Assembly (NCBI GenBank): GCA_017504165.1
Contig: JAFVRR010000010.1
Span: 62,001 to 126,000 of the forward strand
DNA from: Clostridia bacterium
Lineage (GTDB): Bacteria > Bacillota > Clostridia > Christensenellales > Borkfalkiaceae
Length of the DNA: 64,000 bases
Direction of reading: 5' to 3'
A program made the translations under genes and the position numbers. Numbering within the stretch: position 1 is the stretch's first letter; each line of letters starts with the position of its first letter. The notes below the pieces were generated by a model. It made no database searches, was not told where the DNA came from, and worked only from the letters and a program-made list of their open reading frames with translations. Below are positions 20,332 through 35,935 of the stretch, in pieces.

Positions 20332-20406
20332 GGCCCCTTGGTCAAGCGGTTAAGACATCGCCCTTTCACGGCGGTAACACGAGTTCGAATCTCGTAGGGG
20401 TCACCA
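20332..20406 (+). tRNA. tRNA-Glu (TTC)
   Basis: A 75-base cloverleaf: acceptor GGCCCCT pairs with AGGGGTC, anticodon loop CTTTCAC has TTC, T-arm is CGAGTTCGAATCTCG, and CCA is encoded. It lies 33 bases after tRNA-Met in the same unit. Its last 18 bases are duplicated downstream, so it is the integration site of the island that follows. Confidence 0.96.
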
Positions 20407-20475
20407 TAAAAAAAGGATAGCATAGTTGCTATCCTTTTTTTGTGCTATCCGTAAGGATAGGCGAACTCGTAGAGT
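20389..20475 (+). repeat. Island repeat copy A (tRNA-Glu 3' end, terminator, start of hairpin core)
   Basis: This copy holds the tRNA 3' end, terminator 20408-20441 (stem AAGGATAGCA / TGCTATCCTT) and the first two hairpins of the core, CTATCC-gtaa-GGATAG and GAACTC-gtaGAG. It then diverges at about 20474, where copy C continues. The shared stretch with copy C (27658-27732) is nearly identical over about 75 bases. The rest of the gap to 20560 holds no gene. Confidence 0.8.
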
Positions 20476-24315: not shown

Positions 24316-24446
24316 CCAAAAAAAACACTCATCAAACGATGGGTGTTTTCTTTTTGCTATCCGTAAGGATAGGCGAACTCGTAGAGTTCGGAATAAGCGT
24401 TAGCGTCATTTTTGTTGCTTGCAACAACATCTCGTAGGGGTTACCA
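24313..24446 (+). repeat. Island repeat copy B
   Basis: It begins TCACCA like the tRNA 3' end, then has terminator 24321-24356 (stem AACACTCATC / GATGGGTGTT). Next come the hairpins CTATCC-gtaa-GGATAG, CGAACTC-gta-GAGTTCG and GTTGC-tt-GCAAC, and it ends ATCTCGTAGGGGTTACCA, which matches the last 18 bases of tRNA-Glu with one change. Copy D is its closest relative. The remainder of the 24152-24616 gap holds a terminator at 24450-24495 and the deacetylase remnant. Confidence 0.85.
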
Positions 24447-25601: not shown

Positions 25602-26762
25602 ATGATAACTCGCGTAAAAATTAAAAATATAAATGCAATTGACGAGTGCGATATTTCTTTTGAAAAAAGTAGATATCAATATTTGAATGAGATGATTTAT
25701 AATAATACTAGTGTAAACCCAATTGCTTTTTATGGTGTAAATGGTAGTGGTAAATCTTCCTTTATAAAAGCTTTTTCTCAACTTATTGCGATGATGATAA
25801 ACGAGCCAGACAGAATAAGAAATTTTATTGCAAATCAACATAATGTTAACAAGCTTTTGAGAAAAGAATTGGTTATAAGGAAGAGTACTAACAATATTAA
25901 TTTTGAAAAATTTTATGATAGTATAAAGTCTTCTATGTATATTGAGTTTAAATTGGATGGCAAAAATTATGCTTACTATATAGAAACTTCATTGATGAAG
26001 AGGATAACAGTTGAAAAGTTATCTATAGACGATAAAATGATTTTTAGTAGAAAAGGTAATAATTTTATTTATGCTAACGAAAATCATAAAATAGATTCAA
26101 ATATGTATCCTGTTATAAGAAAGTTGGCAAATGATGAACAAATAGGTAATAAAGAATTGGATGAGGCTTTTTATTATCTAAGCAATATGGCTTATGTAGA
26201 TGATGTTAAGAGACACTTTCAATTTAAAGCTGCCGTTGAAAAAAGTTATATGGACATCATAGTAGATAAATCAAAACAAGTTAAGGAAATAATGTCAAAA
26301 TATAAAGAATTTCCTTTATTTGATGTAATATCTAGACCAAATGTAAAAGGTGGCGATGATTATTTTGCAAATATAGAATTAGATAACGACTATTTGGAAC
26401 TTCCTTATGGGATGATTTCCACTGGTATGGAGAATAATAGTGCATTGTTATCGTTTGTTCTTTCAGTGCCAGAAAAAAGTACTATTTTTATTGATGAGAT
26501 AGAAGATGCACTACATCCTTTGGCTGTAATGGATTTTATTAATGTTGTAAAAGAAAGAAACATACAGTTGATTTTTTCTTCTCATAATACTTATATTTTG
26601 CAAAAGTTAAGACCAGACCAAATATTTTTTGCGAATTGGAAAAATGGTTATTCAAATTATAAGAAATTATCTGATATATATCAAAACATTAGAGAAGTTA
26701 ATAATATAGAAAAAATGTATTTATCAAGTCTTTTTGATGAGGATATAAAGAAAGATGAGTAA
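25602..26762 (+). CDS. AAA/ABC-type ATPase of an AbiL-like defence pair (AbiLi-like)
   Basis: This 386-residue AAA15/OLD-like ATPase has Walker A GVNGSGKS at 45-52. A helical insert follows (about 90-250), then GMISTGMENNSALLSF (the signature-like motif), Walker B FIDEIEDALHP with D298-E299, and a switch His in FSSHNTYIL. Such ATPases sense infection in RloA/AbiLi, PARIS and Septu systems. It overlaps the RloB-like gene by 8 bases, and this pairing with RloB is the one named AbiL in lactococci. A GTAGGTG-type site precedes ATG 25602. AT-rich composition separates it from the GH3 segment. Confidence 0.8.
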   Translation: MITRVKIKNINAIDECDISFEKSRYQYLNEMIYNNTSVNPIAFYGVNGSGKSSFIKAFSQLIAMMINEPDRIRNFIANQHNVNKLLRKELVIRKSTNNINFEKFYDSIKSSMYIEFKLDGKNYAYYIETSLMKRITVEKLSIDDKMIFSRKGNNFIYANENHKIDSNMYPVIRKLANDEQIGNKELDEAFYYLSNMAYVDDVKRHFQFKAAVEKSYMDIIVDKSKQVKEIMSKYKEFPLFDVISRPNVKGGDDYFANIELDNDYLELPYGMISTGMENNSALLSFVLSVPEKSTIFIDEIEDALHPLAVMDFINVVKERNIQLIFSSHNTYILQKLRPDQIFFANWKNGYSNYKKLSDIYQNIREVNNIEKMYLSSLFDEDIKKDE

Positions 26763-27549
26763 AAACTTTTTATTGATAGTCGAAGGAAACGTGATGGAGA
26801 AAAACATTTTTTTCAAGGTTTTTCAGAGATATGGTTTTTCTGTGAATGATTGTGGCACTTTGAATATAGATGATGAAAACAGTTTAGATTTAGAGAAATT
26901 TACAGGCACAGATTCTAAAATTAATATTTATATAGTGCAGGGGCCAAGAACTAGAATAAGGGATTGGTTAAAGCTGTTTAACAAAAGAGAATCGGATTTT
27001 GATAAATTATTTGAAAAAATAGATACATATTTTGCTGGTGTTTTCATTATTTACGATGTTGACCATACATTAAAAGAAGAGTTAACGGACATGTTTAATA
27101 AATATCAAGATGAGACGACAGGTTTATTGTTATTGAGTTCTCCTTGTATTGAAGTTGTGGGGGATATAGAAAGAACAGAAGAACTAAAGGTGGAACATTT
27201 AAGTGAGTATAAAACACAACAAAATCGCGAGCACGAACAGAAGCACAAAAAACATACTCGTGAATATATAATAGAAAATTTTGAAAAATTAGTTTGTTTT
27301 TATTTAGATAAAAATGTAAAAGAATCGGGAGATAAAAACATTATGAATCATCCTGAATTTGTCTTGAAAAAAATAAATGAACTAAATGAGCGAAACTATA
27401 TAAGTGATGATGATATTCCAGTGCATTATAGATATTTCACGACAGTTGTTTATGTTTGTATAGCGTACATTATGGGGTTAACGAAAGAATTTGAAAATAG
27501 TGATAAAGTAAAATCATTTTTTTCTTCAAAGATTGTTAAGGATGAATAG
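26755..27549 (+). CDS. RloB/AbiLii-like effector with Toprim-type active site
   Basis: This 264-residue protein has LLIVEGNVME at 6-15 (Toprim-like E10-G11) and IIYDVDHT with D101 and D103, the acidic D-x-D pair of Toprim nucleases and RloB. The C-terminal 120 residues are helical and charged. RloB proteins occur with AAA ATPases in defence islands and are the presumed toxic nuclease. Start ATG 26755 lies inside the ATPase gene (ATGAGTAA overlap), implying coupled translation. No adjacent immunity gene is needed in known systems because the ATPase controls the effector. Confidence 0.75.
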   Translation: MSKNFLLIVEGNVMEKNIFFKVFQRYGFSVNDCGTLNIDDENSLDLEKFTGTDSKINIYIVQGPRTRIRDWLKLFNKRESDFDKLFEKIDTYFAGVFIIYDVDHTLKEELTDMFNKYQDETTGLLLLSSPCIEVVGDIERTEELKVEHLSEYKTQQNREHEQKHKKHTREYIIENFEKLVCFYLDKNVKESGDKNIMNHPEFVLKKINELNERNYISDDDIPVHYRYFTTVVYVCIAYIMGLTKEFENSDKVKSFFSSKIVKDE

Positions 27550-27570: not shown

Positions 27571-27676
27571 AAACATATAATTTATACCTTAACAATAAAC
27601 CACAAACCCGAAACCGTTTTTGAAGACGGCGAAAGTGTTCGGATAATTAACGATTGGGTCACCACAAAAAAAGGAT
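27571..27676 (+). pseudogene. Orphan coding remnant running into repeat C
   Basis: An open frame without a start reads NHKPETVFEDGESVRIINDW and then runs into repeat C, where it stops. Its codons are balanced and protein-like, unlike the AT-rich flanks. I cannot name the parent gene. It looks like the cut edge of a gene at the element boundary. Confidence 0.3.
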
Positions 27677-27792
27677 AGCATAGTTGCTATCCTTTTTTTG
27701 TGCTATCCGAAAGGATAGGCGAACTCGTAGAGTTCGGAATAAGCGTTAGCGTCATTTTTGTTGCTTACAACAACATCTCGTAGGGGTCACCA
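27655..27792 (+). repeat. Island repeat copy C, ending in a perfect 18-bp tRNA-Glu 3' end
   Basis: It starts GGGTCACCA, then terminator 27665-27699 identical to the one after tRNA-Glu, then the full hairpin core. It ends at 27775-27792 with an exact copy of the last 18 bases of tRNA-Glu. It is the best attR-like site in the window. Confidence 0.88.
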
Positions 27793-28567: not shown

Positions 28568-28786
28568 ATGAAAATGTATGATAGAGTTAAATTGATTAAA
28601 GAAAGAGCAGAATATTTAAAGGCTGGAGTGAAAATTAACGAAGAAGGCATAATTATGGGTGAAAATAGAAATGGGTATGTTTTAGTTGTTTTTGAAGGTG
28701 ACATGTATTTAGATGCAGATGGTGTATACAAAACGACGGAAATAGACGTAGGAATAAAAATAGAAGATTTAGAACTGTGTGAGTAG
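28568..28786 (+). CDS. DUF4926-like small protein, probable immunity partner
   Basis: This 72-residue protein begins KMYDRVKLI and continues KAGVKINEEGIIMGENRNGYVLVVF, matching the DUF4926 barrel (D-x-V-x-L, then G-x-x-G-x-I/V, then E-V-E-F). ATG 28568 is chosen because GGAGG lies at 28555-28559; the frame is open upstream but has no site. It follows the DUF6883-like gene by one base, as immunity genes do. Its stop lies near the start of the DprA-like gene. Confidence 0.6.
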   Translation: MKMYDRVKLIKERAEYLKAGVKINEEGIIMGENRNGYVLVVFEGDMYLDADGVYKTTEIDVGIKIEDLELCE

Positions 28787-28829
28787 AAACGTCGGATATA
28801 TAATTAACGGCAAAAACAAGGTAAAGATT

Positions 28830-29657
28830 ATGAACTCAAATATTTCATTAAAACTTTTTAGTTTAATAAAAACGGGTGTTATAAAAACTAACGCTCTCTT
28901 TTGGAAATCGTTTTATAATGAAGATTATATAAATACTTTTCCTTGCGATTTACATGCAATAAAACAAGAACTTAAAGAAAAAAGCATAAACGTCATCTGT
29001 GTTTTTGATGAAAACTTCCCTAGCACAAACGTTAAATTTAAAAATAGTGAAAAACCGTTTTTCTTTGTATATAAAGGCGATATAACGCTACTTAATAACA
29101 TAGATAAAAACGTAGCAGTTATAGGCGTTTTAACGCCAACTAATGAAATAGTAAAAAGAGAACAAAAAGTTGTAAAAAGTTTAACTGAAAAAGGCTTAAA
29201 TATCGTAAGTGGACTTGCAAAAGGTTGTGATACTGTTGCACATAGTGAAAGTGTTAAAAACAATGCAAAAACTATCGCTTTTCTACCGACAACAATAGAA
29301 AATATTTATCCTAAAGAAAATACAGCATTAGCAAACAAAATCGTTGAAAACGGTGGACTTATCGTTAGTGAATACGTAAGCGAGCCGAAAAACAAATACG
29401 AAAATGTTAAACGATTTATTGAACGTGATAGATTGCAAGCGTTATATTCAAAAGCAGTTGTTTTAATTGCAAGTTTTAGAAAAGGCGAAGGGGATAGTGG
29501 TTCTCGCCACGCTTTTGAAAAAGCTAAGGAATACGGTAAAAAAAGGTTTGTTATGTTTAGAGAAAGCGATTCTAACGACTTAATATTCGGCTTAAATAAA
29601 GACTACGTTATGCAAGGCGAAACAGTCATATCACAAAAAGAAATTGAGGAACTATAA
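28830..29657 (+). CDS. DprA/Smf-like SLOG-domain protein
   Basis: This 275-residue protein (from ATG 28830) resembles DprA, which loads RecA on incoming single-stranded DNA. The Rossmann/SLOG motifs are NVAVIGVLTPTNE, VSGLAKGCDTVAHSE, TIAFLPTTIENIYP and GDSGSRHAFEKAKEYGKK. Compared with chromosomal DprA it lacks the winged-helix C-terminus. An upstream GTG at 28779 would add 17 residues and overlap the previous gene, but has no ribosome site; AAGGTAAAG precedes 28830. It is followed directly by a HAD gene remnant. DprA-like proteins in islands may act in defence or competence; which one is unclear. Confidence 0.7.
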   Translation: MNSNISLKLFSLIKTGVIKTNALFWKSFYNEDYINTFPCDLHAIKQELKEKSINVICVFDENFPSTNVKFKNSEKPFFFVYKGDITLLNNIDKNVAVIGVLTPTNEIVKREQKVVKSLTEKGLNIVSGLAKGCDTVAHSESVKNNAKTIAFLPTTIENIYPKENTALANKIVENGGLIVSEYVSEPKNKYENVKRFIERDRLQALYSKAVVLIASFRKGEGDSGSRHAFEKAKEYGKKRFVMFRESDSNDLIFGLNKDYVMQGETVISQKEIEEL

Positions 29658-29766
29658 TTGGTTTACGTTGTAGATTTAGATGATACGCTAGTTTTAACTA
29701 AAAACCTAAATAATGATGCTTACAATTTTGCTTTAGAAAAACATGGACAAAAAAGAATTAAAACGG
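29658..29766 (+). pseudogene. HAD-family phosphatase, truncated by repeat D
   Basis: A TTG-start frame with the HAD motif I DLDDT (residues 6-10) runs for about 36 native residues and then continues into repeat copy D, where the frame is only repeat sequence. The remaining 150 or more residues of a HAD protein are missing. It abuts the DprA-like gene with no gap, so the two were an operon before truncation. Confidence 0.65.
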
Positions 29767-29896
29767 CAAAAAGAAAACACTCATCAAACGATGGGTGTTT
29801 TCTTTTTGCTATCCGTAAGGATAGGCGAACTCGTAGAGTTTGGAATAAGCGCAAGCGTCATTTTTGTTGCATGCAACAATATCTCGTAGGGGTTAC
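29767..29896 (+). repeat. Island repeat copy D
   Basis: It contains the same terminator as copy B (AACACTCATC / GATGGGTGTT, 29772-29806), the hairpin core with pairing-preserving changes (CGAACTC-gta-GAGTTTG, GTTGC-at-GCAAC), and the end ATCTCGTAGGGGTTAC, 16 bases of the tRNA-Glu 3' end. It truncates the HAD gene. Confidence 0.85.
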
Positions 29897-29932
29897 TGCT
29901 TTTTTAAGCATATTTTTCGCCCACTTGTTTTG

Positions 29933-30000
29933 AGACAAACCCACGCCCTGCTGTCACTTACAAAATTTAGAGAAACTTTTGAGAAACAAAAAAGTATTAT
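29933..30000 (+). repeat. 65-bp repeat, copy 2
   Basis: Matches 24913-24979 with scattered differences. It ends about 35 bases before the promoter of the two-HEPN gene, mirroring copy 1. No gene is seen in 29897-30094 apart from repeats and this promoter. Confidence 0.75.
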
Positions 30001-30032: not shown

Positions 30033-30061
30033 TTGAAAATTTTGATAAAATATGATATACT
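30033..30061 (+). promoter_or_regulatory. Promoter of the two-HEPN gene
   Basis: TTGAAA (30033-30038), 17 bases, TATACT (30056-30061), 34 bases before the ATG. It may also serve the iron importer genes downstream. Confidence 0.65.
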
Positions 30062-30094: not shown

Positions 30095-31987
30095 ATGCAA
30101 AAGAAAAAATATAACATTAAAACTATTGATTTTCTTAATGCCTCTCTTGATGAAATTTATTATAGAAAAAAGCATTATATTTCAGGAGTAGATTTGCTTA
30201 ATTTCAAAGGGCAAATGTCGGCATATTTTGTTCAAATAGAAAGATTATTTAGATATGTTTATTTTTCAGATATTAGTCTTGATATTGAAAAGATAGATAT
30301 TGAACTATTAAAAAAACATTTTCCTTTTATATATGGAAATTTTTCAAACAAGCAATTTACTATGTTTCGCGAGGAAAGCGAAAAAGTTGTAGATGGTATT
30401 ACATATTATTTCTACTTAATAGAACAACTTAGAAACATGAATTTGCACGCAGTTATTTCAACAAAAGTTGCTAGAGTTTTTCAAGTAGAAGAATCTTTTA
30501 TGCGCGTGTTTCCAATGCTTTCGGATAAATTAGTATACTCAAAAGAAGGCGTGTTAACTATAGCTGGAATGTTAGCATTACTTATGCCGATTTTGGATGA
30601 AAAAAGATTAAAATATTTGATAGGTTACTTATTTCAGAATTGGGGACTTGAATTATATCAATTAGAATTTAAGGAAAGTTGGGAAGCCCAAAATCGTTTA
30701 ATAGAACGATTAAAAAATACATTCTTAACTAATTATGAAGTAGATATTCGAAAGGATAAGCCTTGTGGAGATTTGTTAAAAGATATATTTGGTAGAGAAT
30801 ATGAAAATCTTAGCATAGAAGAACAAGATAAAGTCTACTTCCAGTTGGATTTGTCAAAACGATTGAATTCACCCAGGTTCGATGTTTTGGGTAGTCTAGA
30901 AAAACAAGAAGATTCCTATTTGCTCACAATAGAAAAAGGGACTAATATAGGTGTTTATTTTGATAATGACTTTACCATAGAGATTAAAGATGTTGAAAAA
31001 TTTTGCGAAATCTGTTGTTTAGTTCCCCCATTTTTAGCAGTTGCTTATTTGTATCATAATAACGTTTGTTTTTTTGATTCAAAAGTTAGTAATAGTATTT
31101 CTTATGAATCATTTCAAAAATTAAACAAAGCCAAGTTTTATAGGGATAAAAATATTCCAATTCTTTGTTATGGTAATGAAAATGCAGATATAAGGGAAAT
31201 CAATAAAACGGCAAGTGAAAATCTTTTAAGAATGTTCTTGGATTTTGAAGAGACAATTGTATTTCATTATGATATTCCAATCTATGGTGATTGGTCTAAG
31301 TTTAGCGATATTACAACTGCACTTAATGTGTCGCAAGAATTAAAAAACAAATTGATTTCATGTAGAAACTTCTGTTCGCACGAAGGGATGTTGGGTAATT
31401 TTCATTACAGCACAAAAAATAGCGGGTATAAAATAACATTGCCATTTATTTGTGATACTATTTGTGAGCTTTCGCAATTTCTTAAAAACTCAGGTAAAGG
31501 CAAAGAAGCCTTTTGGATAAGAAATGATTTGCATAAATATGTATTAAATAATATTGTCGCGGTCAAATATAAAAGAGTTTTCGAGATGTCTGCCCGCTTA
31601 TTTAGGCAAAGTGGAGATAGAGTTGCTGAAACTTGTGCGAATATTCAAAAATCATTAGGGGTTGTTAAAAATTCATGTATAGATAATGTTTCTGAAACAG
31701 CACTTTTGAGGTCGATGAATGAAGGTTTCTTTTTCTATATTCCACAATCACTTTTTGAGACAAAAGAAGATAAATTTGAGTTCTCAAAATTACGTTTAGT
31801 TAGAATCTGTGAGGAAGGATTAGAGATAAGAGGTGGACAAGTTGGAGTTAAAGTTTTGGAATTCTTTCAAACGCCAACAACTAATTTAAGTAAAATTTCT
31901 AAAAATGGGAAAGGCATTCGCTTAGAAAAAATAGAAGAAACGGATAACGGACTAATATCTGTTCGCACTTATAAAATAATAGAATAA
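30095..31987 (+). CDS. Large unrecognised protein with two HEPN-type R-N-x3-H motifs (candidate RNase)
   Basis: This 630-residue protein matches no family I know as a whole. Two copies of the HEPN RNase motif are visible: R113-N-M-N-L-H118 within a helical N-terminal region, and R424-N-F-C-S-H429 within a second helical region. A beta-rich stretch lies between (about 270-345), and another closes the protein (about 560-630). HEPN domains use R-x4-6-H to cut RNA, and two R-[N/H/Q/K]-x3-H motifs in one chain is the Cas13 layout, though Cas13 is usually larger and has a CRISPR array. There is no signal peptide or membrane helix. Island position next to defence genes supports antiviral or abortive function. 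Ribosome site TAGGA is weak. Confidence 0.65.
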   Translation: MQKKKYNIKTIDFLNASLDEIYYRKKHYISGVDLLNFKGQMSAYFVQIERLFRYVYFSDISLDIEKIDIELLKKHFPFIYGNFSNKQFTMFREESEKVVDGITYYFYLIEQLRNMNLHAVISTKVARVFQVEESFMRVFPMLSDKLVYSKEGVLTIAGMLALLMPILDEKRLKYLIGYLFQNWGLELYQLEFKESWEAQNRLIERLKNTFLTNYEVDIRKDKPCGDLLKDIFGREYENLSIEEQDKVYFQLDLSKRLNSPRFDVLGSLEKQEDSYLLTIEKGTNIGVYFDNDFTIEIKDVEKFCEICCLVPPFLAVAYLYHNNVCFFDSKVSNSISYESFQKLNKAKFYRDKNIPILCYGNENADIREINKTASENLLRMFLDFEETIVFHYDIPIYGDWSKFSDITTALNVSQELKNKLISCRNFCSHEGMLGNFHYSTKNSGYKITLPFICDTICELSQFLKNSGKGKEAFWIRNDLHKYVLNNIVAVKYKRVFEMSARLFRQSGDRVAETCANIQKSLGVVKNSCIDNVSETALLRSMNEGFFFYIPQSLFETKEDKFEFSKLRLVRICEEGLEIRGGQVGVKVLEFFQTPTTNLSKISKNGKGIRLEKIEETDNGLISVRTYKIIE

Positions 31988-35541: not shown

Positions 35542-35935
35542 AAATCGGTTAGCATTAGTGGCGTAGCGATAGGGATTATTGCTACGCCACAACTATATTT
35601 GCCTAACGGCAAGTTATATTGCTAAAAGCAGTGATATTTTGCTACGCAAAGTTTTATTTTCCCTTTCGGGAAAGTTGTGGCAAATATAATATAACTTTAA
35701 CCGTAGGTTAAAATATAACTGCTTACGCAGTTGGCGTTCGCTACGCTCGGCTACACTGTTTACTGCGTAAACAATATCACTTTTAGCCACAAGGCTAAAA
35801 ATATAACTAAATTATTTAACTATTCTGTGGATAAGAAAAGCCCACCATATTTCGCTTTTTGCGAAGTATAGTTGGCTACACTTTTGTTACTGCTTAAAAA
35901 TCCCTATGTCTATTAAAGTTTACGCTAACCGATTT
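35542..35935. repeat. Non-coding multi-hairpin element with 12-bp perfect inverted ends
   Basis: AAATCGGTTAGC (35542-35553) is the exact reverse complement of GCTAACCGATTT (35924-35935). A second inner pair, ATAGGGATT (35569-35577) and AATCCCTAT (35899-35907), is in register. Between them are at least six local hairpins, including GCC-taac-GGC, TTTCCC-tttc-GGGAAA, AACTGC-tta-GCAGTT and GTTTAC-tgc-GTAAAC, plus repeated GCTACG and CCACAAC words. No protein-coding frame fits. It lies between convergent genes. It looks like a non-autonomous mobile or repeat element; one family copy only is visible here. Confidence 0.65.

Follow-up and report, generated by a model that had tools for sequence, protein, structure and literature searches.

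The gene at positions 30,095-31,987 (+) of the window, the whole 64-kb stretch of DNA analysed here, encodes a probable RNA-cutting enzyme from a gut bacterium. Its 630-residue product, P0001, is best explained as a standalone, non-CRISPR RNase carrying two HEPN-type domains in one chain and probably serving as a defence effector, a predicted function to which we assign a probability of about 0.5. This figure weighs two estimates together: an active HEPN RNase is rather likely, as predicted from the motifs, and a role in phage defence or abortive growth arrest in the window is predicted with slightly less than even odds. Two conserved motifs, a family of relatives, purifying selection, a defence neighbourhood and surroundings free of CRISPR parts are directly established for P0001.

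The open reading frame begins with ATG, preceded by an AGGA ribosome site. A promoter-like match (TTGAAA, 17 nt, TATACT, with TG before the -10) lies about 33 nt upstream at 30,033-30,061 (+); it is a consensus match only, and such matches are no more numerous in the region than expected by chance. The two Rx4H motifs of the preliminary description are both present: R113-N-M-N-L-H118 is encoded at 30,431-30,448 (+) and R424-N-F-C-S-H429, at a predicted helix end, at 31,364-31,381 (+). In 20,000 composition-preserving shuffles of P0001, the mean RNxxxH count was 0.023 and two or more copies arose in 0.02%. The gene is under purifying selection, as indicated by a dN of 0.155 against a dS of 0.97 (dN/dS of about 0.16) relative to its nearest relative, L007, whose protein is 75% identical. 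P0001 has no Pfam, NCBIfam or PADLOC match, PDB sequence searches returned chance matches only, and its two halves show no sequence similarity to each other.

The relatives of P0001 form a small, so far nameless family. Nine members from gut MAGs, 34-75% identical to P0001, align along their length, and none of the nine departs from the R, N and H of either motif, so that the Arg/His pairs whose conservation the preliminary description had proposed to check are indeed kept. The 71 invariant alignment columns include R113, N114, N116, H118, R424, N425, F426 and H429; only 6 of the 29 arginines of P0001 and 2 of its 8 histidines are invariant, both histidines being those of the motifs. The most conserved stretch (KLNK.KFYRDKNI.ILC.G..NADIREINK, residues 342-371, at 31,118-31,207 (+)) lies between the motifs. 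It is unrecognisable in a remote relative of 448 residues, L018, which aligns in two stretches (1.5e-12 within an eight-protein set, and 5.4e-4 for the genome that carries it). This compact protein is devoid of the middle region of about 160 residues and keeps both Rx4H frames, as RALNVH and RNMWAH. Invariance in nine members, together with persistence of the frames in a relative stripped of its middle, therefore marks the two motifs as the persisting core of the family. The gene for the compact relative (L048, 1783-3129, -) overlaps one for an XRE-type regulator, and directly downstream of it lie genes read as an anaerobic ribonucleotide reductase activase and reductase; the HEPN copy of L007 likewise stands upstream of such reductase/activase-type genes, about 0.5 kb away.

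A sample of 301 genomes from around the host family contained one relative, at 41% identity, and wider searches added further members, nearly all within the same order. Samples of the class and phylum yielded no more members, only weak scraps, and searches of IMG/VR and of phage and plasmid collections yielded no relatives of P0001. Weak profile matches in L017, L019-L023 and L025 were rejected as relatives, being read as RNase J-type metallo-hydrolases (HGHEDH). The protein of L006 ends early, at residue 577, with coding remnants downstream of the stop. Another member, L005, lies on a 3.75-kb contig (CALUQQ010000041.1) labelled Gastranaerophilales; its closest kin are nevertheless Clostridia, which therefore points to a binning error or to transfer.

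Rx4H motifs mark the RNase site of HEPN proteins; two HEPN units are required, and a single chain that carries both can assemble the site within itself (PMC3710099, PMC12165695). The preliminary description took two such motifs in one chain to define Cas13, which is untrue: CnuE of the type III-A CoCoNuT systems is a non-CRISPR protein that combines two HEPN domains (PMC11090510), and of twelve clusters with intramolecular HEPN dimers described in the Cas13an study only two adjoin CRISPR arrays (PMC12165695). Non-CRISPR twin-HEPN proteins are thus already known as a kind. P0001 is not a member of Cas13, because an adjacent array was looked for and none was found: the 64-kb window holds no CRISPR-like direct repeats, as had been noted earlier, the eight related loci hold no array, and no Cas1 was found in the genome of the window (G000, 94.7% complete). 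It plausibly resembles Cas13 in its twin-HEPN site, minus the guide. Like Cas13, of which Cas13bt3 and Cas13b are the nearest by fold, it pairs an Rx4H motif in its N-terminal helical region with another in a helical region further along the same chain. P0001 differs from Cas13 in having no nearby array and hence no known guide, in the absence of sequence similarity, in its size (630 residues against typically 800-1400; PMC12165695), where the preliminary description was right, and in the roughly 200 residues, including a beta domain, that follow the second motif.

Closer in build are Cas13an (429-577 residues) and the other clusters of the same study (PMC12165695), which are compact and have two HEPN domains per chain; like ten of the twelve, P0001 is not accompanied by an array. 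The P0001 family is new relative to the libraries searched, a comparison outside which those ten clusters lie. CnuE matches P0001 at the level of two motifs in one non-CRISPR protein; it has McrB/McrC-type partners and a second motif shortened to RxH, whereas P0001 has a full second motif and no such partners were recognised among the neighbours examined, part of them scanned with Pfam. With Csx1/Csm6 proteins the family shares only sub-threshold Csx1_HEPN matches in two members (best E 0.06), and it has neither a CARF match nor type III genes in the loci examined. None of the nine members matches Abi_2 (PF07751) at E ≤1, and an Abi_2 sequence search returned one weak match only. The family has no significant sequence link to any HEPN family.

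Predicted structure leans towards Cas13, modestly. The full-length model of P0001, built from an alignment of six sequences, is weak (pTM 0.43, mean pLDDT 65), with pLDDT below 50 at or beside both motifs, and Foldseek searches with the models found nothing at E ≤0.001. When the Foldseek candidates were realigned to the full-length model with VIA, Cas13 chains took ranks 1, 3, 4 and 6, four of the six best. Rank 1 is Cas13bt3 7vti (Z 8.2, 168 aligned residues, rmsd 5.8), which aligns model residues 81-484 with chain residues 60-771 and so spans both motifs. The others are PbuCas13b 6dtd (Z 6.3, 146 aligned, 3.7 Å; model 36-216 to chain 37-292), Cas13bt3 7vtn (Z 6.3, 123 aligned, 3.6 Å; model 13-213 to chain 14-190) and EsCas13d 6e9f (Z 6.0, 156 aligned, 4.0 Å). 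Z values of 6.0-8.2 are in the range that helical models attain without kinship, and Hermes transposase chains (Z 6.2-6.3) are interleaved with the Cas13 chains, so that the Cas13 fold signal is modest. Cas13 structures were also part of the AlphaFold training data and may colour a shallow model. Residues 340-630 modelled alone (pTM 0.74) form a helical bundle in which the second motif ends helix 414-428/429; two helices and the beta domain follow. LemA and designed bundles head the VIA matches of this segment (Z ≤6.2), and the candidate list contains no HEPN chain, an absence from that list that does not amount to disproof; because these matches are generic bundles, HEPN2 is not confirmed by fold. 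The comparison of each half with HEPN domains that the preliminary description had suggested thus aligned the first half with the N-terminal region of Cas13 and left the second among generic bundles, both from weak models. The beta-rich C-terminal end that it had described is borne out at residues 545-630 (31,727-31,984 (+)), where pLDDT is mostly about 90.

The surroundings of the gene in the window are rich in defence genes. Downstream of a tRNA-Glu (20,332-20,406) lie an AbiLi-like AAA ATPase (25,602-26,762 (+); PADLOC AbiLi 1.4e-40), an AbiLii-like protein (26,755-27,549 (+); PADLOC AbiLii 3.6e-07, PDC-M12B 2.2e-07) and a DprA/SMF-like, ShosA-like protein (28,779-29,657 (+); Pfam DNA_processg_A 2e-40, PADLOC ShosA 4.4e-56); a DUF6883-like protein, with a match below the Pfam cut-off, is also encoded upstream of the HEPN gene. 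A direct repeat of 127 nt ending in the 3′ end of tRNA-Glu occurs at 24,318-24,444, 27,664-27,790 and 29,770-29,896, the third copy (+) just upstream of the HEPN gene; a tRNA-Glu-end stretch at 20,389-20,475 is listed with these three. All in a single orientation, the repeats divide the modules of a GH3 gene, the AbiL pair, DUF6883/DprA and HEPN, and the genome contains no other copy of their 33-nt core. The array looks like stacked att-type insertions, and no integrase was seen within the repeat-bounded modules. After the ShosA-like gene, a stub at 29,658-29,933, read as HAD-type and cut at the repeat, may represent a disrupted ShosT partner. Between the final repeat and the start of the HEPN gene lie 198 nt, which puts the gene at the island edge, not demonstrably inside: the preliminary description was correct about the tRNA-Glu, the AbiL-like genes and the edge position, and placement within the island does not follow. 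Downstream, 12 nt separate the end of the HEPN gene from genes read as an iron-siderophore-type ABC transporter. Further on, 35,590-35,662 (+) gives a sub-threshold match to the Gut-1 sRNA (RF01706; 40.6 bits, where the gathering score is 50; E 4e-5).

The standalone gene appears to move by itself. The members in the window, L007 and L008 form one supported clade (99/98). The DNA of the window matches that of L007 at 80% across 30,098-31,913 and not at all beyond the gene, even though the host genomes come from separate families of the order. A search of 8 other genomes of the window's genus found no HEPN gene. This patchy presence, with DNA similarity stopping at the gene borders, points to transfer of the gene by itself. 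Insertion of the single gene between direct repeats was considered and rejected: an imperfect 22-nt repeat flanks the gene in L007, and none was found at the window or L008. When an empty site was sought in the genus, none of the 8 sister genomes yielded the transporter gene that follows the HEPN gene in the window. Near the HEPN gene in L007 (5997-7584) and L008 (10133-11311), a protein of 269-273 residues is encoded that is 69% identical between the two loci, has no family match and is followed downstream by a predicted membrane-type protein.

The main context of the family, invisible in the window and hence to the preliminary description, is an operon. In six of the nine members, the HEPN gene lies in a compact operon with a glycosyltransferase (GT)/methyltransferase protein of about 1,600 residues, usually joined by a SLOG gene. 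L004, L006, L027 and L028 share, with its overlaps, the order radical SAM, GT protein, HEPN, SLOG cluster 4 and short UDP-sugar dehydrogenase (UGDH); L029 (in genome G446) and the short contig L005 have partial sets. The GT protein of the four complete operons (1613-1621 residues) combines two GT2 domains with a methyltransferase domain and a stretch that looks kinase-like by eye, and the first few to some tens of bases of the HEPN gene lie within the end of the large GT gene. L004, L027 and L028 have an extra gene, phosphotransferase-like by eye and with no Pfam match. A PADLOC match of the radical SAM protein to pVip (4.6e-11) was set aside as a general radical-SAM match. With its sugar- and nucleotide-handling genes, the setting of these six members is biosynthetic-looking, not one among defence genes. 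No precedent for an apparent RNase linked to a glycosyltransferase/radical-SAM operon beside SLOG was found in the open-licence literature, and this link is the part of the system for which no precedent was found.

The operon raises the somewhat doubtful alternative that P0001-type proteins are the RNase arm of the radical SAM/GT-methyltransferase/SLOG/UGDH-like cassette, with SLOG and HEPN as a sensing/effector pair, a pathway that makes or masks the ligand, and the window copy as a liberated standalone derivative. Besides the conserved gene order, two observations favour this. Of 396 genomes sampled from the order, 7 yielded the large GT protein, and in 5 of these the HEPN gene adjoins it. 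In genome G521, GT is followed directly by UGDH with neither HEPN nor SLOG between them, and a search of that genome turned up no SLOG relative, a pattern suggestive of HEPN-SLOG as a single insertable module. The HEPN protein nevertheless occurs in G000 and G559, where no SLOG relative was found and GT is not among the matches listed, and in G418 a SLOG relative occurs 19 kb away and not beside the HEPN gene. That P0001 is instead a helical protein with no HEPN nuclease role, its RNxxxH motifs being structural, would fit the weak models and the lack of a significant fold or family match; it is improbable in view of the invariant R and H of both motifs in every member, the Rx4H spacing kept in L018 and the rarity of two motifs in shuffled sequences.

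Least probable, and very unlikely in our estimate, is that P0001 acts, in the manner of Cas13an or AbiF, as a nuclease guided or controlled by RNA, in this case a small non-coding RNA other than a CRISPR array. The Cas13-leaning VIA match of the weak model is in its favour, as is the resemblance of the family's RNFCAH/RNFCSH to the RNQCAH of the RNA-controlled AbiF of C. difficile (PMC12373285), a protein of the AbiD/F (Abi_2) group whose defence-gene setting is also like that in the window. AbiF, however, homodimerises and accompanies the ncRNA RF03085, whereas neither RF03085 (abiF RNA) nor another relevant Rfam RNA was found near the members examined, arrays are absent from the window and the eight related loci, and the three standalone members share neither conserved flanking DNA nor a flanking RNA.

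A standalone twin-HEPN RNase thus remains our preferred reading, against which stand the biosynthetic-looking operon of most members, the weak model, the absence of a significant Foldseek match and the missing sequence link to HEPN families. Much of the preliminary description agrees with it (two conserved Rx4H motifs without an array, defence genes as neighbours, a family not represented in the libraries searched and a weak Cas13-leaning fold match), apart from its definition of Cas13. We infer for P0001 a HEPN fold in each half, a composite site, RNase activity, a trigger and a growth-arrest outcome. HEPN1 (about residues 30-220, with R113/H118) would pack against HEPN2 (about 360-505, with R424/H429) so that, as in Cas13, the two share a single composite site for RNA cutting, in contrast to the homodimerisation of AbiF. 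The conserved middle stretch (230-371) and the C-terminal beta domain may keep P0001 inactive and carry a sensor or RNA-binding function until a trigger, most likely infection, would lead it to cut cellular or phage RNA, whereupon growth would stop. Since the HEPN gene of most relatives is built into a SLOG and glycan/nucleotide-sugar operon, trigger or substrate there may be tied to that pathway.

In an improbable extension, the family would represent a new conflict system, in which a twin-HEPN RNase and a SLOG sensor sit inside an operon of radical-SAM, glycosyltransferase, methyltransferase and UDP-sugar-dehydrogenase genes whose products make or mask the signal, standalone HEPN derivatives spread as single genes, and the HEPN pair is a non-CRISPR sister of that of Cas13. 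For the question of how Cas13 arose from non-CRISPR HEPN toxins, a family with two conserved motifs per chain, and a 448-residue relative reduced to little beyond the motif regions, provides a testable non-CRISPR comparison.
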